A stretch of DNA of 33,614 nucleotides from Actinospica acidithermotolerans. Its GTDB lineage: Bacteria; Actinomycetota; Actinomycetes; Streptomycetales; Catenulisporaceae. Positions 852-16,427 of the stretch are shown here, one piece after another (the first letter of the stretch is position 1; each line of letters begins with the position of its first letter). Position numbers and translations under genes: made by a program. The stretch is taken from assembly GCF_018139625.1 (NCBI RefSeq), contig NZ_JAGSOH010000081.1, positions 1 through 33,614 on the forward strand, given 5' to 3'. Under the pieces are notes generated by a model. The model worked only from the letters and a program-made list of their open reading frames with translations, made no database searches and was not told the origin of the DNA.

Positions 852-3800
852 TTATGCCCTGGCTGCGAGATCATGGACGTGGATCCTGTCGGCTGGCAAG
901 GCGTGGCGGGCAATGTCGCCGATGTGGTCATGGTGGGTCAGAACGATGATCTGGAACCGGTCCGCCATACCGTCGAGGAGCTGAAGGGTGGCCCGCGTGC
1001 GCTGATCGTCGAACGTCATCAGCACGTCGTCCAAGACCAACGGCATCGAGCGACCCTGGTCCGCATAGTGCTGCAGAGAGGCGAGGCGGAGCGCGAGATA
1101 GAGCTGGTCGAGCGTGCCCTCGCTCATTTGGCCGACGCCGACCCGCGCGCCGTCGGCCTGGCGCGCCTGAAGTACGACCTCGTTCTTCTCGTCGGTGGCC
1201 ACCAACTCGCTGTACTCGCTCAGGGTTAGTCCGGCAAACAGCTGTTGGGCCGCTCGCAGAACCGGCGCTTGGTGCTCTTGACGGTACGTCTCGATGCAGC
1301 GCAGCAGGATTTGCTCTGCGAGTCGGAGCCGCAGATAGTCCAGGGCGTGTCTGGTGATCGCCGCACGTTCCTGTTCTACCGCGTCGGCTGCCTCGGCTGC
1401 GGCTGCGGAGCCGTCCATCCGGTCAAGCTCGCTCTTCGCGTTGGTCAGTCGTTCGACAGCTGACTCGCGATTTGCCTCCGTCCGGGAGATGACCTCATCG
1501 AGATCCTTGATTGAGGCGGCGAGTGCGTCCGGGTCATCCAGATCGGCGATCTCGCGCTCGAGTTGCGCAAGGCTGACGCCCTCGCGCATCAGGCCGTTCT
1601 CGGCCACCTTGAGCTGCTTGCCCAGGTCTGTCAGCGCGACGGCGCGGCGGGACGCCTGAATCAGCTCCTGCTCGTCAGCGACGCACGCCCGCCGAAGTAG
1701 AGCGTTGAGCACATCAAGGTGGGCTTGGCGCTGCGCTGCACCCTTAGCTTGCTTGGCCCGCTCGGCTGCCAGCTCCTTCGTCAGCCGGTCAAGCTCCCGC
1801 TTGTCCTTGATCTCGGCGTCGAGCGCGGCCTTGAGCGACTTCGCGGTGCTCTGGTGTTTCTGGGGGTCGGACACCGGCGACCGTCCGCAGCCCGCGAGTA
1901 CCTCCGCGAGGAGTTGAGAGAAAGCGGCGACCTGAGCCGCGGCTGAATCTGCACGCTTCTCAGCGGCGTCGGCCTCGCGACTGCATCGTGCCGCCTCGTC
2001 GAGCGCAGCCAGCGTTTCCGACACCTCATCAGGTTGCCCGGACAGTCCGTGCTCGGCAAGGAGGCGTTGCCACCGCTGCTCGCATGTGGTGAGCGCGTCT
2101 TCAAGCTGCGCAACCTCTTCCGCGCCGTCGGCCACTTCGCTACGTAGCCGCTTTGTGAGGGCGGCGGCTTTGTCGCGCTCGCCGATCTGCTTGGTGAATG
2201 CTTCGCGCTGGGTTGTCGCGAGTGCAATCAGTTCGCTGAGCGTCGCCTTGGCAGTCGGTGGCGCCACCCCGGTCTCGTTAAGGATTGCGCGCAGCCGGTC
2301 AGCGCAATCCTCGGCCAGAGCCTGGTCTGCTGAAAGAGTCGTGCTTAGCGTGTCGCGTAGATCAGAGAGCTCACGGAGTTTAGCGATCGCAATGAGCAGT
2401 TCGCGTGCGGCCTCGTACGCGGGCGGCTGAATTCCGCTAGCTGCCCACAGCGTGATCCAAGCGTCTTCGATTGCGGTTCGCTCCTGCATCGCCTGGTTGA
2501 GCCGCGTCTGAGCAGCGGCAAGGCGGTCGATCGTCTGCTGAAGGTCGGTTTCGAGGGCTCGGCGATCCGCGAGACGCTGCGCCTCGCGCCGGATGCGGTC
2601 GACCGTCAGGTCGGCTGCATTGACCGCGTCCTCGAACTCGCCGACTGGAAGCGGTACTGCCAACTCGGGCTGTGCGGTGGATGCAAGCCGCGGACGTAGA
2701 GCGGTCCACAGGTGCTCGCGCTCATCACGAGCCCGTTCCAGCTCCATCTCGCTAGGCGGCGGATCCGCTGCGAGGAAGTGGTCCAGAGCCTCGCGGTCGC
2801 GATCGCGATCCGCAGTGAGCTCCGCAGCCTTCTCCTGCAGCTTCGTGACCGACCTGTCTGCGGCATCCCACGACTTCCGATGCGCGTTGACTTCTTCCTC
2901 ACTCGGGAACGTCCGCTCATCGACATCATCGGGCAGCGCGAATCGCTGGTAGCGCCTACGTGCTTTGTTGAGCTCACGGACTGCGTCGTCGAGCTGCTTA
3001 GAGGAAGTTCGATTCCGCTCGTCGAGCGTGGTCGGGACAGAGTCGATTACGGCGCGCAGCGCGGTCGTGTCCGGTGGCGAGGGGATGTCGGCGAGTTTCT
3101 CCTCCTCTTTCTCAAGACTGCGGCGCTGCTTGGCAAGGCCCTTTTTCGCACCGGCCAAGGCGGTGGCTGCTTGGACTAGTTCGCCGCGCAGATCGTCGAC
3201 TCGCGTGCGCACCAGAGCGGATACAGGTGCGGCCGACTCCGACTCCTGGTACTGGGGGAGCCCGGCCAGCATTTCGGCTGCCTCGAGGCGGAGCTGTCTG
3301 GCTTTCTCGCGATCGCCGGTTTCGGCCTGTCGTGCTTTGACCGCCGAGTTGGCGTCTGCGAAGAGCTCGTTGATCAGATCGCTGTGGTCGATCAGGCGCT
3401 GATCAGGGTCGAGCTCCGAGGTTTCGCCCTCAAGACGCGAGATCGCCGAGGTGTGGGCCTCCAGCTCGCGCTCAACTTCATCGATGGAGCGGCGGACGCG
3501 CTCATACTCGCGAGTTATCTCGGCATTGACAGAGGTCTCGGCTTCCAGCTCCTTCTTCTCCTCCAGCAGTTGGCTACGGTTGATCATGCCGGGGAGACAT
3601 TGCTGGATCCGCATGAGGCGTTCCCGCTCCTGACGCGTATGAGTCAGTTGCTCCGCGATTTGAGCACGCCGCTTCTCAGCTTCGGCCACAGCGGATTGCG
3701 CCTGCTGGTAGTGCCGTGGACTGAGCAGCGCCTCATCACGTCGGCGCAGTGCGGTCCGGTACGGCCCCGCATCGTGGAGGGCCGCGTTGAGGACCGGAAG

Positions 3801-4325
3801 CTTCCCACCGGAGACCCAGAGCTTCCTGATCTGCTCGGCCAGTTCCTTGTGAAGCGAACTCAGATGTGCGCTCGACTGACTCTCGAATAGCGCTTGGCCG
3901 ACTTCTCCGTTGACGTCGAGCAGGCGCTTCCCGCCAGCGCGCAGTTCGTTGTGATCGATCGCGAATGTTCGCGTGAAGTCGTCCCGCGAGACGCCAACGA
4001 GGATCCGGTCCAGAACGACCTGCTCGAGAATCTCGTCGCCTGGTCCGCGCAGCGCCGCCTTGTTGCGCTTGAGGCGCACGATCTCTTGAACTCCGCCGTC
4101 CGATGCGCGCAGCAGCGCAGCGAGCCGCAGGCTCGGCATGTCGTGGACGAAGGCATAGGGGGTATGCAGCTTGATTCCGTACAGCAGGTCTGCGATGGCG
4201 TTGCGCAGAGTGGACTTGCCGGCCTCGTTCGGACCCACGACGAGGTGGACTCCGGGGCCCGACAGGTCCAAGCTCGTCCCGCTGAACCGGCCATAGCGAT
4301 CCAGGTCGAATCGGTCGATGCGCAT
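852..4325 (-). CDS. Rad50/SbcC-like (YhaN-type) coiled-coil ATPase
   Basis: A 1157-residue SMC/Rad50-like ATPase. The first ~45 residues carry MRIDRFDLDRYGRF and a Walker A (GPNEAGKST, residues 31-39). Residues ~190-1000 are largely charged heptad-type helix, i.e. long coiled coils. The C-terminal lobe has an ABC signature in the variant form GQMSEGTLDQLYLALRLA (~1065-1082), a Walker B PLVLDDVL (~1095-1102) followed by a D-loop, and a switch histidine in LTHHDH (~1129-1134). The MSEGT signature and lack of an obvious zinc hook favour YhaN over classical SbcC. The ATG at 4325 shares its A with the stop of the upstream nuclease gene and has GGAGGAG nearby; a longer start at 4391 would overlap that gene. 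YhaN/YhaO pairs are predicted ATP-driven DNA-end processing complexes. Here the pair is divergent from a TerB-BrxD-helicase arm. Confidence 0.85.
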   Translation of the reverse strand: MRIDRFDLDRYGRFSGTSLDLSGPGVHLVVGPNEAGKSTLRNAIADLLYGIKLHTPYAFVHDMPSLRLAALLRASDGGVQEIVRLKRNKAALRGPGDEILEQVVLDRILVGVSRDDFTRTFAIDHNELRAGGKRLLDVNGEVGQALFESQSSAHLSSLHKELAEQIRKLWVSGGKLPVLNAALHDAGPYRTALRRRDEALLSPRHYQQAQSAVAEAEKRRAQIAEQLTHTRQERERLMRIQQCLPGMINRSQLLEEKKELEAETSVNAEITREYERVRRSIDEVERELEAHTSAISRLEGETSELDPDQRLIDHSDLINELFADANSAVKARQAETGDREKARQLRLEAAEMLAGLPQYQESESAAPVSALVRTRVDDLRGELVQAATALAGAKKGLAKQRRSLEKEEEKLADIPSPPDTTALRAVIDSVPTTLDERNRTSSKQLDDAVRELNKARRRYQRFALPDDVDERTFPSEEEVNAHRKSWDAADRSVTKLQEKAAELTADRDRDREALDHFLAADPPPSEMELERARDEREHLWTALRPRLASTAQPELAVPLPVGEFEDAVNAADLTVDRIRREAQRLADRRALETDLQQTIDRLAAAQTRLNQAMQERTAIEDAWITLWAASGIQPPAYEAARELLIAIAKLRELSDLRDTLSTTLSADQALAEDCADRLRAILNETGVAPPTAKATLSELIALATTQREAFTKQIGERDKAAALTKRLRSEVADGAEEVAQLEDALTTCEQRWQRLLAEHGLSGQPDEVSETLAALDEAARCSREADAAEKRADSAAAQVAAFSQLLAEVLAGCGRSPVSDPQKHQSTAKSLKAALDAEIKDKRELDRLTKELAAERAKQAKGAAQRQAHLDVLNALLRRACVADEQELIQASRRAVALTDLGKQLKVAENGLMREGVSLAQLEREIADLDDPDALAASIKDLDEVISRTEANRESAVERLTNAKSELDRMDGSAAAAEAADAVEQERAAITRHALDYLRLRLAEQILLRCIETYRQEHQAPVLRAAQQLFAGLTLSEYSELVATDEKNEVVLQARQADGARVGVGQMSEGTLDQLYLALRLASLQHYADQGRSMPLVLDDVLMTFDDQRTRATLQLLDGMADRFQIIVLTHHDHIGDIARHALPADRIHVHDLAARA

Positions 4326-5566
4326 CAGTCGCGCTCCTCCATCATCGCGGCCAGCAGTTCGGACGCCTCCCCGAGGAGGTCGGCGCACCATTGGTCGTCA
4401 TCGGGAAACTGCCCTCTGTCGTCGCGAACCTGCGATGGGAGGCGCCCCCAAAGGGGGTCCTTCTTGATTAAGTCGCGCAGAAGATCGCCGTTCTCGCCCA
4501 GCTGCTTCGCAGTACGTACGACGCTCTCCGCCAGCTCGGTACCGATGTTCCGCCCCGGCCCGCCGGAGGATTCGGGCTGCGTCTCGACCCGTACCTTCTC
4601 CACCCACACATCGCCCACGTCATAGCCGAGCGTGCGGATCTCGTGGGTGAGCCTCTCGCGGTCGCCCCATAGCCGCAGGTGCGCGCTCGAGCGGCCGGTC
4701 AGGCGTACTCGGGCAGCCAGGAGGCGACCGTCTGCCGACGACCTGGCTCCCGCCAATGCGTTGCGCACTGACTCGCACGCGTCATCCACGCCCGTGGCCT
4801 TCGACACATCCACGAGCACCTGCTCCCAGCGGACCACGTCGAGGGCTCGGTGCTCGACGCTCACGCTTTCGGATTCGACTGTGATCAGGGCGCACCCCTT
4901 TGGACCCCTCTCCTTGGCGTGCCGGCCTTGGATGTTGCCCGGAAACACGATGAACGGCTCGCGTGAGACCTCTTCTCGCGCGTGGACGTGTCCAAGCGCC
5001 CAGTACCCGTAGTCGTGCGCGGCGAGCTGATCGACCGTGCAGGGGGCATAGCGGTCATGCCCCTCCCTGCCGTTAAGTGCCGTGTGCAGCAGTCCGACGT
5101 TGAAGTATCCGGCACGCGCGGGTGGGTAGTGCACTGCGAGGTTCTCGGTGACATCCCGGCGCACGTAACCCTGGCCGTGGACGGCGAGACCGAGTTCATC
5201 GTCAAGGATGGTTTCGGGCCCGTGAATGTCGAACACTCGTACGTTCGGCGGCAAGCTCAGCGTTCTGCTGATCTGGCTTGCCGCATCATGATTCCCTGAG
5301 ACGAGGTACACGGGAATGTCGGCATCGTGGAGCCTGTGCATCTGACGCTGAAAGAAGATGCCTGTATCGAACCCCCGCCACTCGCCGTCGTAGATGTCCC
5401 CGGCAAGCAGCACACTGTCGACTCCTTCGGAGAGAGCCAGCGCGACCAGGTTCTCCGTGGCCTGTCTGGTCGCCGCTCGGATAGATGCGGCGGGCGCGTC
5501 GGGATACCTCTCCAATCCCTGCAGAGGACTGTCGATATGCAGATCGGCGGCGTGCAGCAGCTTCAT
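4325..5566 (-). CDS. Mre11/SbcD-like (YhaO-type) metallophosphoesterase nuclease
   Basis: A 413-residue calcineurin-like phosphoesterase. All metal-binding motifs are present: D8-x-H10 in AADLHID, GD at 57 with D60 (LLAGDIYD), GNHD at 91-94, H161 (LLHTAL) and GHVH at 192-195. This is the Mre11/SbcD/YhaO set for a two-Mn DNA nuclease. The C-terminal ~130 residues would include the capping and ATPase-binding region. The start at MKLLHAADLHID is preferred because it gives the canonical family N-terminus; an upstream start would add nine unrelated residues. The stop overlaps the ATPase start by one base, so the two are translationally coupled and likely form a complex. A promoter probably lies in the ~170-bp gap shared with the divergent terB-like gene. 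Confidence 0.88.
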   Translation of the reverse strand: MKLLHAADLHIDSPLQGLERYPDAPAASIRAATRQATENLVALALSEGVDSVLLAGDIYDGEWRGFDTGIFFQRQMHRLHDADIPVYLVSGNHDAASQISRTLSLPPNVRVFDIHGPETILDDELGLAVHGQGYVRRDVTENLAVHYPPARAGYFNVGLLHTALNGREGHDRYAPCTVDQLAAHDYGYWALGHVHAREEVSREPFIVFPGNIQGRHAKERGPKGCALITVESESVSVEHRALDVVRWEQVLVDVSKATGVDDACESVRNALAGARSSADGRLLAARVRLTGRSSAHLRLWGDRERLTHEIRTLGYDVGDVWVEKVRVETQPESSGGPGRNIGTELAESVVRTAKQLGENGDLLRDLIKKDPLWGRLPSQVRDDRGQFPDDDQWCADLLGEASELLAAMMEERD

Positions 5567-5739
5567 GGCAGGCACCCTAAGCCCTTCGGCCATAGGCTGT
5601 CCGGGCTTTGTTCGAACTCATACTCGTTCGTCATCAAGACAGCGTGCAACTGCTGGCCGACTTCGTTCATCTCAGTGACTCGGACGCGGTATGCTCGCTG
5701 GACCGACGTTGGTGGCGTCGGCGCACGAGGAGGGTCTGG
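5567..5739 (+). promoter_or_regulatory. Divergent intergenic region with likely rightward promoter and strong RBS
   Basis: This 173-bp gap separates two oppositely transcribed operons. For the rightward arm, TATGCT at 5690-5695 with a weak TTCATC at 5666-5671 (18-bp spacing) is a possible sigma-70-type promoter. A strong Shine-Dalgarno sequence (GAGGAGGG, 5727-5734) precedes the chosen GTG start at 5740. No clear palindromic operator was seen. The promoter assignment is tentative; the ribosome site is convincing. Confidence 0.45.
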
Positions 5740-7947
5740 GTGGGACTGCTCGACCGTTTCAAGGCTCAACCGCGCGGTGGACCCGCTCAGTCGGCCATGC
5801 GCGTTTCACCGCCGATCGCTCCTGTGCGGCCGATCGCACCGGGTAAGCGCGAGAGGCCTCCGTTGCATGCAGCCCAGTGGTTGCCGGCCGGAGCGTCCGT
5901 GGTCATCGGGGGATACACCATCGTCGGCGGGCTACTTTACGTGGGCAGCAGCCTTCCGGTGGCGCGTCCGGGCGTCGGCTCGGATCCGGCGCTCATCAAC
6001 CCCGACCTCCCGATCGGTCGACGGCCGGACATATCGGGGCAGGAGTTGAGTTACTGGCCGGGCTACGGGTCGATCTCCCCGGACCAGAGGACGGCCTATC
6101 TCGCGTGGCTCTCCACCGGGCGAAGCAACCCCGAGGTCCCGATCGGATATGTGTTCCTCTACTTCTACGGCCTTGAGCGCCGCATCCTCATCGACTGCGC
6201 CGCATCGGCGGCGCTGCGTGCCGAGGTCCCCGCACTCCGCGCCGAAGTAGAGCGCCTGCTGTCGATCTATGGCGGCTACCACCCTTTCCGGAGATACGCG
6301 ACGAGCCTTCTCGGTCTGGTCGGCCTCATGCTCGGCGGACAGAACCGAACGCCCCCGGAGTACACCGGTGAGAAGTGGCCTGTGCCGGTCCAATTGCGTG
6401 TCGTGCTCGGTGAGTACGGCCGCGCACGCGCGCCGATCCCGGCGTCGTGGGCTATGGCCTGGGCGCTGTTCGGTCCCGAGATCTATCCGCGAACGCCCGT
6501 CGTGCGGTGCCCCGATGAGTTCGCCCGGCTCTTCCACGCTCGATACACGGCCAGGTTCGGACCCGGGATGGTGATTCCCGTCGCGCGCAAGACCGTGACG
6601 GTTGAGTACATGCCTGCGAGTTCAGGACTTGCGCAGACCGCGTGGGACACGAAGCTGCCGGACGTGTTCGAGCTCGAAGCACCGTTGAAGGTCCTCGGTG
6701 CGATCGTCGACGAGGTGACGGACGAGCTCGACTCCTATAGCCGATGGCTGGGTCGCCATCCCGATGGGAAGGACACACTGGCCGCGCTGGCGTGGCTGCC
6801 GGCCGCATTGATCGACCCGAGAAGGGAACCCGTCAGAGGGCTGCTCGGATTGATCGAGCGCCGGTTGTCCGGGGCTGACCAGGCGCTGATCGACGGTCTG
6901 GATCTGGTTCGCGCCTGGGGTGCTAGCGGGAGCTCCAAGCTTACGAAGCAGGAGTCGAGCGCTCTGGCTCAGCTGCTCGCAGGCCAAGGATTCGGGCTCG
7001 AACCTGACCCGCGGTTCGGCGGGTCCCCGCTCGGAGCCAGTCCAGCCGTGGTCTTCCGCGTCGATCGGGACAACGCACCGCAAGTCGCCTCCAGCGCCTA
7101 CACCTCGGCGACGACCGTGATCCGGCTCGCGGCTGCCGTTGCGTCTGCAGACAGGTCGTCTGTCGCCGAACAGGACTATCTCACCGCCCACGCCGAATCG
7201 GCGCTGGGGCTCTCGCCGGAAGAACGAAAGCGCCTTCGCGCCCACCTGCACCTGCTCTTGTCGTCAACAGTGAAATTGACTGGGCTGACCGCCAGGATGG
7301 CCGACCTCGCCCAGGGCGAGCGTGAGCAGACCGCCGCCTTGTGCCTGGCCGTCGCAGCAGCCGATGGAGTCATCGCTCCCGCGGAGATCTCGACGCTCAC
7401 GAAGATCTACAAGCTGCTCGGCCTTCCCGACTCTCGAGTCTTCCAAGACATCCACGCCACCACGGCAGCCGAGAGCGAGCCGGCCCGGGAGCCGGTCACC
7501 GTCAGCCCCGGAAGGCCGCGGGAAGAGACTGGATACCTGTTACCGGCCCAGCCTCCGGCCAATCCGACCGCGAGCAAAGAGCTCGGCCTCGATCGTGCGG
7601 CGATCTCAGCCAAGATCGCCGATACCGAACGGGTGAGCGCTCTACTCGGATCGATCTTCGTCGAAGACGAGGCTCAACCGCAGCAGGTCCAACCGACGCA
7701 GATCACGGAGTCCGCGCCCATCGCGAGCCTCGATGGGCCGCACTCAGCCCTGCTCCGTGACCTCGCGCGTGCCGACTCGTGGTCGCGCGCAGCCGTAGAA
7801 GACATGTGCGCGAAGCTCGGCCTGCTCACGGACGGCGCTCTCGAAGTCCTCAACGACGCCGCATTCGACTGCGTCGGCGATCCCGTTGTGAACGGCGCGG
7901 ACCCCCTGGAAATAGATCTCGACGTCATGGAGGAGATGCAGCGATGA
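5740..7947 (+). CDS. TerB-N / TerB / TerB-C domain protein
   Basis: A 735-residue protein. GTG at 5740 is chosen because GAGGAGGG lies 5-6 bases upstream and the product then begins VGLLDRFK; an earlier ATG at 5608 would add 44 residues that read as noise. Residues ~25-190 resemble the TerB-N domain (VVIGGYTIVGGLLYVG, SYWPGYGSISPDQRTAYLAWL, FLYFYGLERRIL). A TerB domain lies at ~525-570 (ALCLAVAAADGVIAPAEI, with the conserved DG and E of the metal-binding helical fold). The final ~110 residues match TerB-C (HSALLRDLARADSWSRAAVEDMCAKLGL, then the acidic DPLEIDLDVMEEM tail). TerB modules are metal-binding and often membrane- or DNA-linked. Without terC, terD or terZ partners this is unlikely to be tellurite resistance. 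It heads an operon with BrxD-like and helicase genes (ATGA overlap), so a sensory or scaffold role in DNA processing is inferred. Confidence 0.82.
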   Translation: MGLLDRFKAQPRGGPAQSAMRVSPPIAPVRPIAPGKRERPPLHAAQWLPAGASVVIGGYTIVGGLLYVGSSLPVARPGVGSDPALINPDLPIGRRPDISGQELSYWPGYGSISPDQRTAYLAWLSTGRSNPEVPIGYVFLYFYGLERRILIDCAASAALRAEVPALRAEVERLLSIYGGYHPFRRYATSLLGLVGLMLGGQNRTPPEYTGEKWPVPVQLRVVLGEYGRARAPIPASWAMAWALFGPEIYPRTPVVRCPDEFARLFHARYTARFGPGMVIPVARKTVTVEYMPASSGLAQTAWDTKLPDVFELEAPLKVLGAIVDEVTDELDSYSRWLGRHPDGKDTLAALAWLPAALIDPRREPVRGLLGLIERRLSGADQALIDGLDLVRAWGASGSSKLTKQESSALAQLLAGQGFGLEPDPRFGGSPLGASPAVVFRVDRDNAPQVASSAYTSATTVIRLAAAVASADRSSVAEQDYLTAHAESALGLSPEERKRLRAHLHLLLSSTVKLTGLTARMADLAQGEREQTAALCLAVAAADGVIAPAEISTLTKIYKLLGLPDSRVFQDIHATTAAESEPAREPVTVSPGRPREETGYLLPAQPPANPTASKELGLDRAAISAKIADTERVSALLGSIFVEDEAQPQQVQPTQITESAPIASLDGPHSALLRDLARADSWSRAAVEDMCAKLGLLTDGALEVLNDAAFDCVGDPVVNGADPLEIDLDVMEEMQR

Positions 7948-9329
7948 CGGACAGCCGTATCAGGCCCCGCGAGCGAGACGCGATCGTGCAGTCGCTGCGC
8001 GCGGGCGTCGTGCCGCGCAGCGGCCACCAGCACATTCAGGTCGGGCGCGCGGATGAGGTGCTCGCGCTCGTCAGTGACATCCAGCGTATCGCCGACGGCG
8101 GTTCGGCCGTGCGCTTCGTGATCGGGGAGTACGGCTCAGGCAAGACGTTCTTCCTGCAACTGGTTCGCGCCATCGCGCTCGAGAAGCGGCTGGTGACGAT
8201 GCACGCCGACCTCGGGCCGGATCGTCGGCTGCACGCGACCGGAGGCCAGGCGCGAAGCCTCTACGCCGAACTGACCCGCAATCTGGCCACCCGTTCCAAG
8301 CCCGAGGGAGGGGCGCTGGCCAGCATCGTCGAGCGCTTCGTGAGTCAAGCGCTCGCAGAGGCCCGCACGTCCGGCGGCACGCCGACCACCGTGATCCACG
8401 ACCGGCTTTCTCAGCTGTCCGAGATGACCGGCAAGTACGACTTCGCTGAGGTTGTCGCCGCGTACTGGACGGGCCACGACACCGGTAACGAGCAGCTCAA
8501 AAGCGATGCTGTCCGCTGGCTGCGGGGAGAGTTCGCGACACGCACTGACGCACGCCGCGCCCTCGGCGTGCGCACGATCGTCGACGACGCGAACGTCTAC
8601 GACCAGCTCAAACTGCTGGCCCGCTTTGTGCGCCACGCGGGCTACGAGGGCGTACTCGTCGGCTTGGACGAGATGGTCAACCTCTATAAACTCGCCAACA
8701 CACAAGCCCGCAACTCTAACTACGAGCAGATCCTGCGCGTCCTCAACGACTGCCTCCAGGGATCCGCCGCACACCTCGGTTTCATCTTCGGCGGAACACC
8801 CGAGTTTCTCCTCGACACGCGGCGCGGCCTGTACAGCTATGCCGCGCTACAGTCGCGTCTAGCCGAGAACTCCTTCGCTTCCAACGGCCTAGTGGATCAC
8901 AGCGGGCCAGTGTTGCGGCTCGCCAACCTGAGCCCCGAAGACTTCTACGTGCTCCTGACGAAGCTCCGCCACGTCTATGCCGCAGGCGACCCCGCCGCCT
9001 ACCTCCTTCCGGAGCAAGGCATCGAGGCCTTCATGCAGCACTGCTCCTCCCGCATCGGAGACGCCTATTTCAGAACGCCGCGCAACACCATCACCGAGTT
9101 CATCAACCTGCTCGCCATCCTCGACCAGAATCCTGGGGCCGACTGGCGGCGGCTGGTCGGAGAGGTATCGATCCCGCAGGACGTCAATCCCGACCTGCTC
9201 CCGCTGGAGGGCGAGCCGCTCGAGCAGAAGCAGGAAGCGTCGACCGACTCGTCGCCTGGGTTCCAGGGTCATACCGCCGAGCCGGACCGCCCGCACCAAG
9301 ATGGCAGTCTGGCGACGTTCCGCCTCTGA
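7944..9329 (+). CDS. brxD: BrxD-like P-loop ATPase (DUF2791)
   Basis: A 461-residue P-loop ATPase starting MTDSRIRPRERDAIVQSLRAG. This N-terminus, with GVVPRSG and IQVGRADEV shortly after it, is characteristic of BREX ATP-binding protein BrxD. Walker A is GEYGSGKT (61-68) and Walker B is GVLVGLDE (236-243). FGGTPEFLLD followed by RGLYSYAALQSRL is also family-typical. The ATG overlaps the terB stop as ATGA, with GGAGGAG at 7929-7935; the longer in-frame start lies inside terB and gives an arginine-rich shadow sequence. In BREX types that contain it, BrxD is paired with the helicase BrxHI, as here. No PglZ, PglX or PglY/BrxC is present, so it appears to have been recruited into a TerB-based module. 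Its biochemical role is unknown beyond ATP binding. Confidence 0.85.
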   Translation: MTDSRIRPRERDAIVQSLRAGVVPRSGHQHIQVGRADEVLALVSDIQRIADGGSAVRFVIGEYGSGKTFFLQLVRAIALEKRLVTMHADLGPDRRLHATGGQARSLYAELTRNLATRSKPEGGALASIVERFVSQALAEARTSGGTPTTVIHDRLSQLSEMTGKYDFAEVVAAYWTGHDTGNEQLKSDAVRWLRGEFATRTDARRALGVRTIVDDANVYDQLKLLARFVRHAGYEGVLVGLDEMVNLYKLANTQARNSNYEQILRVLNDCLQGSAAHLGFIFGGTPEFLLDTRRGLYSYAALQSRLAENSFASNGLVDHSGPVLRLANLSPEDFYVLLTKLRHVYAAGDPAAYLLPEQGIEAFMQHCSSRIGDAYFRTPRNTITEFINLLAILDQNPGADWRRLVGEVSIPQDVNPDLLPLEGEPLEQKQEASTDSSPGFQGHTAEPDRPHQDGSLATFRL

Positions 9330-9331
9330 CG

Positions 9332-11521
9332 ATGCCAGGTTCCGCAGCGTTCGAACTGCTCCACCCCGTCGTCCGGAAATGGATCTGGTCTCATCAGTGG
9401 ACGCAGTTGCGTGACGCCCAAGAACGCGCCGCGGCGCCGATTCTCACGGGCGACCGCGATGTCATCATTGCCGCGACGACCGCATCGGGAAAGACGGAGG
9501 CGGCGTTCCTGCCGATCTGCTCGGCGCTGCTTTTCAGCGAGGATGAGCCGCGTAGCGGCGTCCAAGCGCTCTACGTCAGCCCCCTCAAGGCCCTGATCAA
9601 CGATCAGTACGGGCGCCTCGACAACTTGTGTCGCGACGCCGAGATACCGGTTCATCGTTGGCACGGTGACGTGCCGGGCACACAGAAGCGCAAGCTGCTT
9701 GCGAAGCCGTCGGGGATCCTGCTGATCACGCCGGAGAGCCTCGAAGCGCTCTTCGTCGTGCATGGCACTGCCGTCGCGCGGATCTTCGGCGAGCTCCACT
9801 ACGTCGTGATCGACGAGGTCCACACATTCATCGGATCCGAGCGCGGCGCGCAGCTCCAGTCTCTGCTTCACCGCGTCGAACTCTCCGCGCGGCGGCATAT
9901 TCCGCGTGTTGGTCTGTCGGCCACCCTCGGCGACATGTCCGCCGCGTGCGACTGGTTGCGTCCCGGCAACGGCGAGCGTGTGGAAGTCATCGTTGCCCGG
10001 GACGGTGAAACCGAGATCAGACTCCAGGTGCGCGGCATCCTTGAGACGCCGCCTGAGGTGGGGAAGAAGTCGGATGAGGGCGGCAGTGCCGTCCGTATGG
10101 CTGCGGACGCCCTGTTTACGACCCACCGTGGCAACGACGGACTCGTATTCGCCAACTCGCGGGCCTCTGTCGAACAGCTGACAGATCTCCTGAGCCGCCG
10201 CAGCGAACGCGATCGTGTACCCAACGAGTTCGTTCCCCATCATGGCAGCCTCTCCCGCGCACTGCGGGAGCACGTCGAAGCGCGGTTGAAGGACCGCAGC
10301 AGTCCGATCACCGCGGTATGCACGTCCACGCTGGAGATGGGTATCGACATCGGCTCGGTGGCGGCCGTGTCCCAGGTCGGCCCACCGCCGTCGGTATCGT
10401 CGCTGCGCCAGCGCATCGGCCGATCTGGGCGGCGCGGTGCTCCCGCAGTGCTCCGCGCCTATGTCATCGAGCGGGCAGTGACGGAGCGGACAGCGCTGGT
10501 CGATCAGCTCCGAGTCGGCATTTTTCAGACTGTGGCTATGGTCGAACTGCTTGTACGCGGGTGGTGCGAATCGCCCGACAACGGAAGCCTGCACCTGTCG
10601 ACCCTCGTACAGCAGGTTTTATCTCTGATCGCACAGCACGGCGGAGTAACACCGCAGGAGGCTTATACGACACTCTGTGGCCGAGGGCCCTTCTCGAACG
10701 TTTCCGCTGACGTCTTCGCGAAATTCCTGCGTTGCCTCGGAAGGCATGACCTCATCGTCCAGCAGGCCTCGGACGGCCTACTACTCCTCGGGCAGGCAGG
10801 CGAGCGGCACGTCAATCACTACACCTTCTACTCGGCGTTCCAGGCCGCGGATGAGTACCGCCTGCTCGCAGAGGGCCGGCAGTTGGGATCCCTGCCGATC
10901 GGCTTCCCGATCAGCGAGGGGACCTTGATCATCTTTGCGGGTCAACGCTGGAAGATCACTGCGATCGACGACCGTGGCAAAACGATCGAACTGGTGCGGT
11001 CTGCCGGCGGGCGGCCGCCGATGTTCGAGGGCGGCATCGCACCGGTAGCCGACATGGTTCGCCGCGAGATGTACGAACTTTATCTCGGACATGAGCTTCC
11101 CGCTTACCTGGACGAGCACGCGCGGGAACTTCTGGGTGAGGGCCGACGCAACTTCGCCCGGTACGCGCTGAACGGTAGGTCGATCCTCGCGTCGGGAGGC
11201 GAGACACATCTGCTCGTATGGCGCGGCGATCGCGTCGTCTCGACCATCGCGATGGCCCTCGCCACCTGCGGGCTCGAAACGAGTCGGCAAGCGATGGTAC
11301 TGAGCGTGATGGCGGATGAAGACACGCTACGGCATGCGATCAAGAGCCTCGCGGGCCAACCGCCGCCGGATGCGCGGCACCTGGCAGGGATTGTCAAGAA
11401 CAAGGCCGTGGAGAAGTGGGACGGTGTCCTTGACGAGAAACTGCTTACGCTAAGTTGCGCCGCGCGAGACGTCGATGTCGCTGCCGCATGGGAGGAGCTC
11501 GCCCTCATCGCGGATGCCTGA
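9332..11521 (+). CDS. brxHI: BrxHI/Lhr-like DEAD/DEAH-box helicase
   Basis: A 729-residue superfamily 2 helicase with complete motifs. These are a Q-like region (WTQLRDAQ), motif I ATTASGKTEAA (48-58), Ia (VSPLKALIND), Ib (TPESLEAL), motif II DEVH (161-164), III (LSATLGD), IV (LVFANSR), V (TSTLEMGID) and VI QRIGRSGRRG (360-369). The remaining ~350 residues are the Lhr-type C-terminal region, including LIIFAGQRWKITAID, a fold seen in Lhr-core helicases. The ATG lies 2 bases after the brxD stop with no strong Shine-Dalgarno, so translation is probably coupled. It likely unwinds or translocates on DNA together with the BrxD-like ATPase and may supply substrates to the divergent YhaO/YhaN nuclease. 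It is the last gene of the rightward operon. Confidence 0.85.
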   Translation: MPGSAAFELLHPVVRKWIWSHQWTQLRDAQERAAAPILTGDRDVIIAATTASGKTEAAFLPICSALLFSEDEPRSGVQALYVSPLKALINDQYGRLDNLCRDAEIPVHRWHGDVPGTQKRKLLAKPSGILLITPESLEALFVVHGTAVARIFGELHYVVIDEVHTFIGSERGAQLQSLLHRVELSARRHIPRVGLSATLGDMSAACDWLRPGNGERVEVIVARDGETEIRLQVRGILETPPEVGKKSDEGGSAVRMAADALFTTHRGNDGLVFANSRASVEQLTDLLSRRSERDRVPNEFVPHHGSLSRALREHVEARLKDRSSPITAVCTSTLEMGIDIGSVAAVSQVGPPPSVSSLRQRIGRSGRRGAPAVLRAYVIERAVTERTALVDQLRVGIFQTVAMVELLVRGWCESPDNGSLHLSTLVQQVLSLIAQHGGVTPQEAYTTLCGRGPFSNVSADVFAKFLRCLGRHDLIVQQASDGLLLLGQAGERHVNHYTFYSAFQAADEYRLLAEGRQLGSLPIGFPISEGTLIIFAGQRWKITAIDDRGKTIELVRSAGGRPPMFEGGIAPVADMVRREMYELYLGHELPAYLDEHARELLGEGRRNFARYALNGRSILASGGETHLLVWRGDRVVSTIAMALATCGLETSRQAMVLSVMADEDTLRHAIKSLAGQPPPDARHLAGIVKNKAVEKWDGVLDEKLLTLSCAARDVDVAAAWEELALIADA

Positions 11522-12347: not shown

Positions 12348-15300
12348 GTGCAGCGCGCACACGGCGAGACGGTTGGGCAGTCGTCTGCGAGCGTGATCGC
12401 ACAAGACGGTGCGGCCGGTATCGGGCAGGTCGTTGGAAACGCCGAGGTGACGATCAACAATCACTACGGGTCGGCTGGCGCGCCTCGGCCGGTACGTTCT
12501 GCGTATCGGCGGCAGGTGGAGCGGATCGCGCCGCCCGTACTCCGGGACCGTGGCGAAGAGTTAGCCGAGCTGGCCGGGTTCTGTGTGCAGAAGGGCCGTG
12601 GCCCGTACGTGTGGTGGCGCGCCGGGCCGTGGGCTGGCAAGTCCGCGCTACTTTCGACCTTCGTCCTGAACCCGCCCGAGCCGGTCGCTGCCCGTGGAGT
12701 GGTGCTTGTCTCGTTCTTCATCACCGCCCGGCTGGCCGCCCAGGACACCCGCGAGGCGTTCACGAGCGCGCTGACCGAGCAACTGTGCGCGTTGCTTCAC
12801 AGGGACCTGCCGGTCGTCGGAGATGAGGCGGGCAGGGAAGCAGCCCTCTTGGATCTGCTGGCCGACGCTGCGGCCGACTGCCGGCAAGCGGGTGGCCTGC
12901 TTGTGCTGGTAGTCGACGGGCTCGACGAAGACCGCGGGGTGACCACCGGGCCCGGGGCGCACAGCATCGCCGGGCTGCTGCCGGCCTGCCCGCCGGATGG
13001 CATGCGAGTGATCGTCGCTGGCCGGGCCAACCCTCCGATTCCGGATGACGTGCCGGACTGGCATCCCCTGCGCGACGCGGGCATCATCCGTCTACTCGCC
13101 GACTCCCCCCATGCTCGAGACCTTCAGCGCCTCGGACAGTCCGAACTCAAACGCCTACTGAAGGGCACGCAAACCGAGCAGGATCTACTCGGACTGCTTA
13201 CGGCCGCCCGTGGCGGGCTGTCCGGCCCCGACCTTCGGGAGTTGACCGGCACGGACCTGGTTGTAGTGGAGGAGATCCTGCACACTGTGGCCGGACGCAC
13301 CTTCAACCGCCGTCCCTCCAGGTGGGCCCCGGACATCGGTTCGCAGGTGTACCTGCTTGGTCACGAAGAGCTGCATAACGCCGCGCGCCACTACATCGGG
13401 CACGCACGCCTGGCCGCCTACCGGCACAGGCTGCACGCCTGGGCGGAGCAATACCGCGCTCCCGACGACGGCTCTCCGGCATGGCCGGAGAACACTCCCG
13501 AGTACCTTCTCACCGGCTACCCCCGAATGCTCGAGACCGCTAAAGACTCCGATCGGCTTACGGCCTTGGCCATCGACCCGGCACGCCACGACCGTTTACT
13601 GGATCTGACTGGCGGAGACACGGTCGCGCTCAACGAGGTCGCGGCCTGCCAGAACCTCCTACTCGAGCGTGTACAGCCGGACCTCTACGCTCTGGCTAGG
13701 CTCTCTTACCACCGCGGACAGCTCGAGACCCGCAATGACAACATCCCGGCCCAACTCCCAGCCGTGTGGGCCGCCCTCGGCCAGCCGACCCGTGCCGAAC
13801 AGCTCGCCCGAGCCATCACTGACCCAAACCGGCAGGTGCAGGCGCTGGCCGCCCTGGCTGGGGCGGTGGCTGCGACAGGTGGTGCGGGAGCGTATGCCCA
13901 CAGCGAGCAGATCGCCCTAACCGTCGCCGACCCGTACTGGCGGGCGCGCGCGTTGGCCGCCGTGATCAGGGCGGTGGCTGCCGGGGGCGATCACGAGCGT
14001 GCCGAGCAGCTCGCCCGAGCCTCCCCCGACCCAGACGGGCAAGTGGAGGCGCTGGCCACGGTGGCCGGGGCGGCAGCGGTTGCGGGCGAGCATGATCGCG
14101 CCGGGCAGGTCGCCGCCGACGCTGAGCAGATCGCCTGGGCTATCACCGACCCATACCAGCAGGCGAGAGCGCTGGCCGCTGTAGTCGGGGCACTCGCCGC
14201 CGTCGGCGACCACGAACGCGCCGGGCAGGTCGCCGCCGACGCTGAGCAGATCGCCTGGGCCATCACCGACCCATACCTACAGGCGAGAGCGCTGGCCGCT
14301 GCAGTCGGGGCACACGCCGCCGTCGGCGACCACGAACGCGCAGAGCGGGTCTCCCGCGAAATCACTGACCTGTACCGGCAGGCAGAGGCGCTGGCGGTGG
14401 TGGCCGCGGCGGTGGCATCTGCGGGCGGGTACGAACGCGCTAAGCAGATAGCCCGGACCATCGCCAACCAGTATCGACAGGTGGAGACGCTGGCTGCGAT
14501 AGCCGGGACGGCGGCTGCCGCAGGCGAGTACGAACACGCTGGTCAGATCGTAGTCTGCGCTGAGCTGATTGCCCGGGACATCATTGACCCGGATCGGCAA
14601 GTGAAAGCGCTGGCCATGGTGATCGAGGCTGCGGCGGCTGGGGGTCAGCACGAACGCGCCAAACAGATGGCCGGTCGCGCCGAGCAGATCGCTCGAGATA
14701 TCACCGACCTGAGTCGGCAGTCGGCTGCACTGACTGCGGTGGTCGCTTCGCTGGCCGCCGCGGGCGAGCACGAGCGCGCCAAGCAGCTCGGCCGGTCCAT
14801 CACCGACCCGAGCCGGCAGGCAGCCGCACTGACTGCGGTGGCTGGATCGGTGGCTGCCGCGGGCGAGCACGAGCGAGCCAAGCAGATCGCGGCGTGCGCC
14901 GAGCTGATCGCTCGAGACATCACCAATCCGGTTCTGCAGGCGGGGGCGATGGCTGAAGTAGCCGGGTCGCTGGTTGTAGCGGGCGAGTACGAGCGCGCCG
15001 AGGGGCTCGCCCGGTCCATCACCGACCCGATCCGACGGGCGGAATCTCTCGCTGCCCTTGCAGAGGCGCTGGCTGCCGTAGGCGAGCATGAGCGCGCGGG
15101 GCAAATCGCCCTGTCCATCACGGATCCGGGTACGCGGATGGCGGCAGTAGCTGCGGTGGTCAGGTTGGCGGCCGCTGCGGGCGAGTACGAGCGCGCCGAG
15201 GGGCTCGCCCGGTCCATCACCGACCCGATCCGACGGGCGGAATCTCTCGCTGCCCTTGCAGAGGCGCTGGCTGCCGTAGGCGAGCATGAGCGCGCGGGGC

Positions 15301-16427
15301 AAATCGCCCTGTCCATCACGGATCCGGGTACGCGGATGGCGGCAGTAGCTGCGGTGGTCAGGTTGGCGGCCGCTGCGGGCGAGTACGAGCGCGCCGAGGG
15401 GCTCGCCCGGTCCATCACCGACCCGATCCGACGGGCGGAATCTCTCGCTGCCCTTGCAGAGGCGCTGGCTGCCGTAGGCGAGCATGAGCGCGCGGGGCAA
15501 ATCGCCCGGTCCATCGCCACCGCTCCTGATGACTCCGAGGACTCCGAGGAGTCAGACCACTTCGACCGCGTCGAACTGAACGCCTATGCAGAAAAGCGAA
15601 TGGAACCCCTCGCCGCCTTGGCAGAGGCGCTGGATGCCGCAGGCGAGCACGCGTACGCCGGACGGCTTACCAGCGCTCTGGCTGGCGACTATTACCAGCG
15701 TGCAGGAGCGCTGGCCAAGCTGGCCAAGGAGATGGCTGCCGCTGGGAACTACGAACACGCCAGCGAGATCGCCTCGGTGATCGATGATCGGGTTCTCCAG
15801 GCGCGGGCTCTGGCCGCGGTGGCTGAGGCGGCCGCGATGGCCGGTGCTTACGAACGCGCTGGGCAGATCGCCCAGGCCATCACCAAGTCGGACCAGCTCG
15901 TGGAAGCGCTGGCCGCGGTATCCAAGGCCACGGCCACTGCGGGTGAGTACGAATACGCGCGCCGGTTTGCGGCCCACGCCGAGCAGGTCGCCCGCGACCT
16001 CTCGCACCCAAACGAGCAGGCAACAGCGCTGACTGTCGCAGCCGAGGCCGCTGCGGTTGCGGGTCAGTACGAACGTGCCAAGCAGATCGCCCTCGCCATC
16101 ACCGATCCGTATGGGCAGGCAAGGGCGCTGGCTGCGGTGGTTGGGGCAGTCGCAAACGCCGGAGAGCACGAACGCGCCAAGCGAATCGCCCGGGCCATCA
16201 GCAACCCGAATCGCCAGGCGGCAGCATTGGTCGAGATAGCTATGGTGATTGGCCCGCCGATGGCCGGCCACTTGCTGGGAACGGCATTTGCGCTGGGTTC
16301 ATGGCTGACGCCGCTTCCAGCGTTAGCGAAACTGTACCCGCACGAGGTAGCGCGGATCGCTGACGCAGTGTACGCAATGAATCCGGATCGTTCAGCGTCC
16401 GGTGCAGTCGGACCGCTGCAGCGATGA
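12348..16427 (+). CDS. STAND/NACHT-like ATPase with long alpha-alpha repeat array
   Basis: A 1359-residue protein. Residues ~13-40 hold a glycine-rich beta-like segment (VIAQDGAAGIGQVVGNAEV, then INNHYG). A P-loop NTPase follows, with Walker A GPWAGKSA (93-100), Walker B LLVLVVDGLDE (184-194) and a sensor-like strand MRVIVAGRANPP (219-230), as in NACHT/STAND proteins. After a winged-helix-like linker, residues ~474-1290 are tandem 33-residue units of the form (G-E-x-E-R-A-x-x-I/L-A-x-x-I-T-D-P, then R/Q-A-x-A-L-A-A-V-A). Some units have 7 extra residues, such as VAADAEQ. Each unit reads as two helices and should stack into a TPR-like superhelix, the usual sensor part of such proteins. The GTG start has no clear ribosome site, so coupling to the upstream gene is possible. 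Role inferred: intracellular receptor of an immune or regulated-death system. Confidence 0.75.
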   Translation: MQRAHGETVGQSSASVIAQDGAAGIGQVVGNAEVTINNHYGSAGAPRPVRSAYRRQVERIAPPVLRDRGEELAELAGFCVQKGRGPYVWWRAGPWAGKSALLSTFVLNPPEPVAARGVVLVSFFITARLAAQDTREAFTSALTEQLCALLHRDLPVVGDEAGREAALLDLLADAAADCRQAGGLLVLVVDGLDEDRGVTTGPGAHSIAGLLPACPPDGMRVIVAGRANPPIPDDVPDWHPLRDAGIIRLLADSPHARDLQRLGQSELKRLLKGTQTEQDLLGLLTAARGGLSGPDLRELTGTDLVVVEEILHTVAGRTFNRRPSRWAPDIGSQVYLLGHEELHNAARHYIGHARLAAYRHRLHAWAEQYRAPDDGSPAWPENTPEYLLTGYPRMLETAKDSDRLTALAIDPARHDRLLDLTGGDTVALNEVAACQNLLLERVQPDLYALARLSYHRGQLETRNDNIPAQLPAVWAALGQPTRAEQLARAITDPNRQVQALAALAGAVAATGGAGAYAHSEQIALTVADPYWRARALAAVIRAVAAGGDHERAEQLARASPDPDGQVEALATVAGAAAVAGEHDRAGQVAADAEQIAWAITDPYQQARALAAVVGALAAVGDHERAGQVAADAEQIAWAITDPYLQARALAAAVGAHAAVGDHERAERVSREITDLYRQAEALAVVAAAVASAGGYERAKQIARTIANQYRQVETLAAIAGTAAAAGEYEHAGQIVVCAELIARDIIDPDRQVKALAMVIEAAAAGGQHERAKQMAGRAEQIARDITDLSRQSAALTAVVASLAAAGEHERAKQLGRSITDPSRQAAALTAVAGSVAAAGEHERAKQIAACAELIARDITNPVLQAGAMAEVAGSLVVAGEYERAEGLARSITDPIRRAESLAALAEALAAVGEHERAGQIALSITDPGTRMAAVAAVVRLAAAAGEYERAEGLARSITDPIRRAESLAALAEALAAVGEHERAGQIALSITDPGTRMAAVAAVVRLAAAAGEYERAEGLARSITDPIRRAESLAALAEALAAVGEHERAGQIARSIATAPDDSEDSEESDHFDRVELNAYAEKRMEPLAALAEALDAAGEHAYAGRLTSALAGDYYQRAGALAKLAKEMAAAGNYEHASEIASVIDDRVLQARALAAVAEAAAMAGAYERAGQIAQAITKSDQLVEALAAVSKATATAGEYEYARRFAAHAEQVARDLSHPNEQATALTVAAEAAAVAGQYERAKQIALAITDPYGQARALAAVVGAVANAGEHERAKRIARAISNPNRQAAALVEIAMVIGPPMAGHLLGTAFALGSWLTPLPALAKLYPHEVARIADAVYAMNPDRSASGAVGPLQR
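14101..14340 (+). repeat. Two tandem 120-bp near-identical copies inside the STAND repeat array
   Basis: Copies at 14101-14220 and 14221-14340 differ at 5 of 120 positions by direct comparison. Each encodes one 40-residue unit (the 33-residue repeat plus a 7-residue insert). The reading frame is preserved. This is a relatively recent in-frame duplication, older than the perfect repeats further downstream. Confidence 0.9.
14982..15507 (+). repeat. Perfect 198-bp tandem repeat, 2.66 copies, inside the STAND array
   Basis: Copy 1 (14982-15179) and copy 2 (15180-15377) are identical base for base. Copy 3 (15378-15507) is identical for its first 130 bases and then diverges. Each full copy encodes 66 residues, i.e. 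two 33-residue units, so the frame is kept. Identity at synonymous positions implies very recent duplication or active homogenisation. Confidence 0.95.

Follow-up and report, generated by a model that had tools for sequence, protein, structure and literature searches.

The locus described here, five genes at positions 852 to 11,521 of a 33,614-nucleotide stretch of DNA from Actinospica acidithermotolerans (hereafter the window), would be, as we believe with moderate confidence, a Shango anti-phage system to which a DNA-end nuclease of the Mre11-Rad50 type is attached. This reading is based on the identities of the genes, on their intact motifs, on a recurrent and independent adjacency of the two parts in other genomes and on a five-gene cassette that is kept whole in three species. 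We infer in addition that the nuclease pair YhaO/YhaN may act in the same pathway as Shango and be physically coupled to it, and the same holds for the sequence of steps and for the function of the protein SngA that are proposed below.

Layout of the locus

The window comprises the entire contig C402, part of a GC-rich actinobacterial genome of 7.9 Mb, and everything upstream of base 1 lies beyond the contig end. Its five genes form two divergent operons, with yhaO and yhaN on the minus strand and sngA, sngB and sngC on the plus strand (Table 1). The genes are tightly packed, as yhaO and yhaN overlap in TGATG, sngA and sngB overlap in ATGA and the gap between sngB and sngC is only 2 bp. The first-pass annotation of this DNA had described the same five genes, overlaps, gaps and 173-bp spacing, and was correct in every detail checked. 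For sngA a GTG start codon was picked by comparison. A scan of the 173-bp intergenic region for a sigma-70-like promoter, a terminator and an inverted repeat found none of these.

Table 1. Features of the divergent locus in the window.
Feature	Positions	Strand	Description
yhaN	852..4325	-	Rad50/SbcC-like ABC ATPase, 1157 aa; Pfam AAA_27 199 bits
yhaO	4325..5566	-	Mre11/SbcD-like nuclease, 413 aa; Pfam Metallophos 42 bits; ATG start at 5566
divergent intergenic region	5567..5739	.	173 bp between the start codons chosen for yhaO and sngA
sngA	5740..7947	+	TerB_N - TerB - TerB_C protein, about 735 aa; Pfam 173/46/84 bits; PADLOC SngA 295.5 bits
sngB	7944..9329	+	BrxD-like AAA+ ATPase, 461 aa; Pfam BrxC_BrxD 517 bits; PADLOC SngB 599.3 bits
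sngC	9332..11521	+	BrxHI/Lhr-like SF2 helicase, 729 aa; Pfam DEAD and Helicase_C; PADLOC SngC 890 bits

Further features are present in the same contig. A gene for a STAND NTPase of 1359 aa that contains TPR-like repeats (353 bits for PADLOC STAND_TPR) follows 3′ of sngC on the plus strand (12348-16427), and the region with this gene may be a small defence island. Genes for an IS21-type transposase and its IstB helper are located close to the right end of the contig (31176-33232, plus strand). A Wadjet-type gene is found elsewhere in the same genome, on contig C111.

Assignment of the plus-strand arm to Shango

Judged from its profile matches, the plus-strand arm is Shango, a published three-gene anti-phage system. 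Its three proteins have their best PADLOC matches in SngA, SngB and SngC, with TerB_N, TerB and TerB_C domains in SngA, an AAA+ ATPase in SngB and an SF2 helicase in SngC, and the genes follow each other in the order sngA-sngB-sngC. A Walker A (GEYGSGKT) and a Walker B motif (GLDE) are encoded by sngB, and a Pfam search of the three Shango proteins of the window found no nuclease domain. The discovery of Shango in immune islands of E. coli is reportedly the work of Millman et al. in 2022. According to the accessible text of PMC10250203, Shango consists of a TerB-like protein, an ATPase and a helicase and protects Pseudomonas aeruginosa against several phages; the same text demonstrates anti-phage activity for other Shango loci and mentions that the system was also found by others in E. 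coli immune islands. The window shares with this system the same three proteins in the same order as well as the overlapping or near-overlapping genes, but adds a divergent Mre11-Rad50-type pair, as the accessible text of PMC10250203 describes a three-gene system only.

The first-pass annotation had taken the ATPase and the helicase for BrxD and BrxHI, an identification that has to be given up, as the PADLOC models for SngB and SngC score far higher than those for BrxD and BrxHI (599 vs 152 bits and 890 vs 402 bits, respectively). The score of the window SngB against the NCBIfam BrxD equivalog is also below the curated cut-off (150.8 against 350 bits). With BREX type 2 the window has a homologous ATPase and helicase in common, which occur there as a tight pair and of which BrxD was suggested to load or activate BrxHI (PMC12839542, accessible text). 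Unlike BREX type 2, it encodes a TerB protein, and none of PglZ, PglX, PglY/BrxC, PglW or a methylase was found among the 21 window ORFs scanned. The absence of PglZ, PglX and a methylase that the annotation had noted is borne out for these ORFs, and its idea of a defence locus without a methylase appears to be right. A PglZ search of the genome gave matches on other contigs only. On contig C422 (G000 C422:5050-9852; L002, L051, L138) a separate BrxD-like and BrxHI-like pair is present at which a PglZ match scores barely above the family cut-off (26.7 against 25 bits), and this set probably represents a BREX type 2 system. Within the limits of the assembly, the five genes are therefore not part of a split BREX locus, a case that had been raised against the first-pass reading by its own author. 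A BREX remnant was likewise ruled out by the Shango scores, the BrxD score below the cut-off and the restriction of PglZ matches to other contigs. In the accessible text of PMC12278908, SngC, BrxHI, DruE and DpdJ are placed together in one potentially distinct SF2 clade.

Structure and N-terminus of SngA

A search by sequence found no close solved structure for SngA or SngB. The structural model of SngA has a mean pLDDT of 84.9, with residues 1-41 being below 50. Residues 451-580 of the model match TerB structures (2ou3; Z 12.2, rmsd 3.2 over 123), and its C-terminus gives weak matches to winged-helix folds (Z 5-7.6) which may reflect just a common arrangement. A hydrophobic, membrane-spanning-like segment is present at the N-terminus in 30 of 79 aligned SngA proteins, or in 35 of 80 if a longer stretch is considered. 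Among the remaining 49 proteins, 16, including that of the window, carry a GLFDRLR-like motif, compared to a mean of 0.39 for shuffled sequences, with the motif having been defined after the sequences were viewed. This motif presumably resembles an amphipathic membrane anchor of the MinD type. In the window it takes the membrane-tether-like form GLLDRFK and lies within the low-confidence N-terminus of the model. SngA is thus probably held at the membrane.

The minus-strand arm as a Mre11-Rad50-type pair

The minus-strand arm is predicted to encode a Mre11-Rad50-type pair with intact catalytic motifs. In an alignment of five YhaO proteins D8, H10, D57, N92, H93, H161, H193 and H195 are invariant, which we take to be the metal-binding and cutting residues of Mre11, and a YhaO profile matches solved Mre11 and SbcD structures in the PDB. 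YhaN contains the motifs of a Rad50-type ATPase, with Walker A GPNEAGKS, signature MSEGT and Walker B LVLDD. The names YhaO and YhaN are, as we assume, those of the Bacillus pair which the window pair resembles.

With SbcCD and Mre11-Rad50 the pair thus shares the Mre11 metal site and the Rad50 ATPase motifs, but it differs from SbcCD in three respects: YhaO stays below the cut-off of the canonical SbcD family (TIGR00619; 65.6 against 77.65 bits), no CxxC zinc hook was found in the YhaN sequence, and the pair adjoins a defence system. To our knowledge, YhaN proteins generally lack a zinc hook. The SbcD family search of the genome recovered the window YhaO below the cut-off together with two further sites of lower score (35 and 34 bits), and no second match to the window YhaO was found in this genome at E 0.001. 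YhaO was without any match in PADLOC.

Linkage of Shango to Mre11-family genes

Shango loci were collected by an alignment scan with SngB of 84,980 species genomes, from which the best 80 of 543 loci by similarity to the window SngB were taken. Five plasmid loci, out of 695 plasmid records matching SngB, and one genome of the window's class (L035) were added by hand, resulting in a sample of 86 loci, of which 20 are shorter than 15 kb and may therefore hide neighbours. SngA, SngB and SngC are complete in 78 of these 86 loci. One locus is without SngA, which is cut by a contig end, and seven are without SngC; two of the seven are cut, and the other five have at least 2.3 kb after SngB and all come from records labelled as cyanobacteria. 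In these five (L082, L083, L086, L087 and L094), SngA and SngB are present and no SngC match occurs within 2.3-10 kb after SngB, which perhaps represents a variant with another third gene. In one plasmid record (L055, 10001-13506) the reading frames of SngB and SngC are each in two pieces.

A Mre11-family gene was found in the flanks of 13 of the 86 Shango loci (the sample including the best 80 of 543) and of 10 of the 31 actinobacterial ones, the latter being tallied by hand from record titles. All three Shango genes are present in 12 of the 13 (12 of the 78 complete loci), the thirteenth being L086 without an SngC match. The recurrent linkage of both arms across genomes, on which the first-pass annotation had staked its reading beforehand, was thus found. 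With the same model, none of 40 Wadjet loci and none of 20 PglZ loci from the window's class had a Mre11-family gene. All controls come from this one class; the 40 Wadjet loci were drawn from the higher entries of a list of 71 genomes (TIGR02680), and the PglZ loci are all 20 matches, including several ORFs of around 370 aa from small genomes that possibly do not belong to BREX. Fisher tests gave p = 0.009 for 13/86 against 0/40, p = 0.0008 for 13/86 against 0/60 and p = 1e-4 for the actinobacterial 10/31 against 0/40, values that serve as guides, as the loci are partly related and the sample is skewed toward relatives of the window. The Mre11 model used for this count was derived from Shango-linked matches; a second model built from 27 YhaO sequences unlinked to Shango returned the identical 13 loci and again no control.

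Clustering of the neighbouring ORFs without any prior choice led to the same genes, as two of the three most recurrent clusters were of the Mre11 type, with six loci each. One is YhaO-type (L056, L062, L072, L074, L075, L115) and the other SbcD-type (L065, L068, L079, L100, L122, L124), with L086 bringing the total to 13. The third cluster, also of six loci, by eye resembles an abundant dehydrogenase family. Of six further genomes with Shango in the class sample, a single one (G521, judged to be the same record as L100) had a Mre11 gene. Strong SngB-like matches in the phylum, 18 in number, were considered as additional Shango loci; tblastn detected SngA in the window and G085 alone, and the remaining 16 were not used. 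The 16 loci (L032-L034, L036-L048; mostly family f41) contain strong SngB homologues, most of them with an SngC homologue up to several kb away, and tblastn with the window SngA as query detected no SngA there. They perhaps belong to a different Shango- or BREX-related system.

Adjacency, independent origins and a five-gene cassette

In nine of the 13 linked loci the nuclease module directly adjoins Shango, without any intervening ORF being called. The two are divergent in L072, L074, L075 and L100, on the same strand in L115 (upstream) and in L062, L065 and L122 (downstream), and convergent in L079. In L124 a distance of 508 bp, in which one short antisense ORF was called, separates Shango from the SbcD gene downstream of it. 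The modules are further apart in L056 (two genes between them), in L068 (four ORFs between them) and in L086, the locus without SngC, where the distance is 5.6 kb. Outside the 86 loci, plasmid pTK1 of Sphingobium carries a convergent YhaO-YhaN pair only 35 bp from SngC.

In a tree of 41 YhaO proteins the presence of Shango requires at least five changes, all five of which are forced by well-supported branches; the branches leading to L056 and to the L062/L193 pair are very long. A Mre11-Rad50-type pair thus appears to have been placed beside Shango several times independently. The window YhaO clusters with L201-L204 (support 91/91), apart from the syntenic copy of its own genus, and the idea that it is the fixed chromosomal copy of the genus is accordingly unsupported.

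Three Pseudonocardiaceae species, one Saccharothrix and two Lentzea (L072, L074, L075), have an 11.6-kb divergent cassette with 86-87% nucleotide identity in common, which was counted as one event. The shared stretch extends from the end of yhaN to the end of sngC and its flanks are different; blastn at E 1e-10 matched nothing in them, whereas tblastx gave scattered flank matches which were taken as frame noise of GC-rich DNA. As the shared stretch ends at the edges of the cassette and the flanks are unmatched in blastn, the five genes seem to behave as one unit in these three species.

Other nucleases beside Shango

At four Shango loci (L065, L079, L100, L122) a HerA-NurA-Mre11 module is present. 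Profiles from three sequences each match HerA (E 5e-177) and NurA (E 1e-34) of 7f6d, and the module, which resembles the HerA-NurA-Mre11-Rad50 end-resection module, occupies at these loci the place that YhaO/YhaN has in the window; in contrast, no HerA- or NurA-like gene is found in the window ORFs scanned. In L056, the YhaO/YhaN pair follows DUF4297 and HerA genes.

A third type of nuclease is fused to SngC itself. A C-terminal DnaQ/RNase_T exonuclease domain was called in 17 of 78 SngC proteins, all from actinobacterial loci (L035, L052, L053, L057, L059, L063-L065, L067, L069, L072, L074, L075, L078-L080, L098), with PF00929 confirmed in L072 and L035 and the remaining fusions called by a model built from those two. 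The window SngC is without such a tail. The tail and a Mre11 gene are both present in five loci, which rules out a strict slot taken by one or the other and never by both; the nucleases therefore do not simply fill one position.

YhaO/YhaN without Shango and other readings of the locus

In an even draw of 394 genomes from the window's class, a YhaO-type gene was found in 22 (E 1e-20) and SngB in seven (E 1e-100), with both being present in the window's genome only; at the threshold used, 21 of the 22 YhaO genomes are without SngB. Within the window's family, YhaO is present in six of the 13 genomes other than that of the window, and Shango in none of the 13. Conserved chromosomal YhaO/YhaN loci exist in the families f91 and f90 and in the window's own genus (L205, L206). 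In four loci of the window's family, namely L202-L204 and the second copy of G752 (L207), YhaO lies 3-4 kb from Wadjet II genes (for L203 by clustering only), although no such neighbour was seen at any of the 40 Wadjet control loci. On plasmids, 253 records match YhaO, and seven of the eight YhaO/YhaN regions opened have no Shango, pTK1 being the eighth. These Shango-free pairs (L144-L150) are on proteobacterial plasmids; one is beside BREX-1 and GajB genes, one is near genes that we take to be Bil-like, and five have no Shango, BREX-1/GajB or Bil-like genes, some of them with toxin-antitoxin-like neighbours. It is possible that the plasmid pair is a stand-alone defence pair. The Shango-free plasmid and chromosomal pairs rule out YhaO/YhaN as an exclusive partner of Shango. 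Overall, YhaO and YhaN give the impression of a roaming pair for end processing which associates with defence systems, in this sample most visibly with Shango. The first-pass description of the five genes as one module holds only in part, for they are not an obligate set, as 73 of the 86 Shango loci show no Mre11 gene and the two arms mostly occur apart in the class.

These data also fit two independent modules in one defence island, namely Shango and a self-contained mobile YhaO/YhaN which travel together as both are useful against foreign DNA, an explanation that we regard as rather unlikely. Shango-free plasmid pairs, some of them beside BREX-1/GajB or Bil-like genes, the proximity to Wadjet II genes in the window's family and the 73 of 86 Shango loci (including the best 80 of 543) without a Mre11 gene would all be expected from it. 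Yet plain clustering of defence genes falls short of the rate seen for Shango, because none of the 60 other defence loci of the class carries a Mre11 gene, and neither the direct adjacency in nine of 13 loci nor the conserved five-gene cassette is in favor of modules that merely share an island.

A chance neighbourhood, in which a mobile Shango landed next to a YhaO/YhaN-type repair complex on the chromosome, appears improbable. The conserved chromosomal loci in f91, f90 and the window's genus would provide such a landing site, and the window YhaO is nearest to family members without Shango. However, it groups with L201-L204, three of which are near Wadjet II genes, and not with the syntenic copy of the genus. 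Moreover, chance alone would place a YhaO-type gene 0.016 times in the DNA examined, where six were observed, the expectation being rough as the loci are related, the density comes from one class and a mean genome of 5.5 Mb was assumed. A remnant or split BREX type 2 locus, finally, can be dismissed as extremely improbable despite the homology of SngB and SngC to BrxD and BrxHI, given the far higher Shango scores, the BrxD score below the cut-off, the lack of PglZ, PglX and PglY in the scanned window ORFs and the separate BREX-2-like set on C422.

A probable mechanism

For a Shango system with an attached Mre11-Rad50-type nuclease the following order of events appears most likely. SngA, as a membrane-held TerB scaffold or sensor, would gather SngB, and SngB, an ORC/Cdc6-like AAA+ ATPase, would load the SF2 helicase SngC on phage DNA that is entering the cell or being replicated. 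YhaN might then grip the DNA ends that arise from unwinding or breakage, and YhaO might cut them. Anantharaman et al. are said to have predicted Ter-linked DNA-processing complexes in 2012. A review (PMC12926258, accessible text) lists the mechanism of Shango as unknown. In its way of working, and only in this, the proposed scheme is similar to Hachiman HamAB, in which recognition of damaged DNA by a helicase sets a separate nuclease to work; unlike there, where HamB is described as Hel308-like, Shango has an additional AAA+ ATPase and a TerB protein (PMC12278908, accessible text). The nuclease pair would be dispensable for defence, as 73 of 86 loci show no Mre11 gene, although some such genes may be hidden in the loci under 15 kb, and Shango as published works with three genes (PMC10250203).

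More tentatively, Shango could form one half of a modular, membrane-located machine for end resection, namely the half that loads the helicase. SngA would serve as its tether, SngB and SngC would open incoming phage DNA, and the work would be finished by nucleases that can replace each other, such as YhaO/YhaN, HerA-NurA-Mre11 or the DnaQ exonuclease fused to SngC. If this were true, the window would hold a five-gene Shango-Mre11 holo-system, in which end processing of the repair type is turned on phage DNA.

Novelty and significance

The first-pass annotation was aware of no characterised system with this exact set of genes. For the trio of TerB protein, ATPase and helicase this does not stand, as it is Shango (PMC10250203, accessible text); for both arms together it may stand, as no paper linking them was found in the open-licence PMC literature. 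Searches of this literature, which did not target HerA or the exonuclease by name, returned no account of a connection between Shango and Mre11-Rad50, YhaO/YhaN, HerA-NurA or a fused exonuclease. The trio as a system is therefore already known, and its link to a Mre11-Rad50-type pair, which was not found in print, would be new.

The Mre11-Rad50 pair, the HerA-NurA-Mre11 module and the helicase-fused exonuclease all point to DNA-end processing as the output of Shango. The linkage suggests which nuclease Shango may work with, and the five-gene locus of A. acidithermotolerans offers a direct test case for this. YhaO/YhaN, in turn, is a possible roaming accessory of several defence systems.
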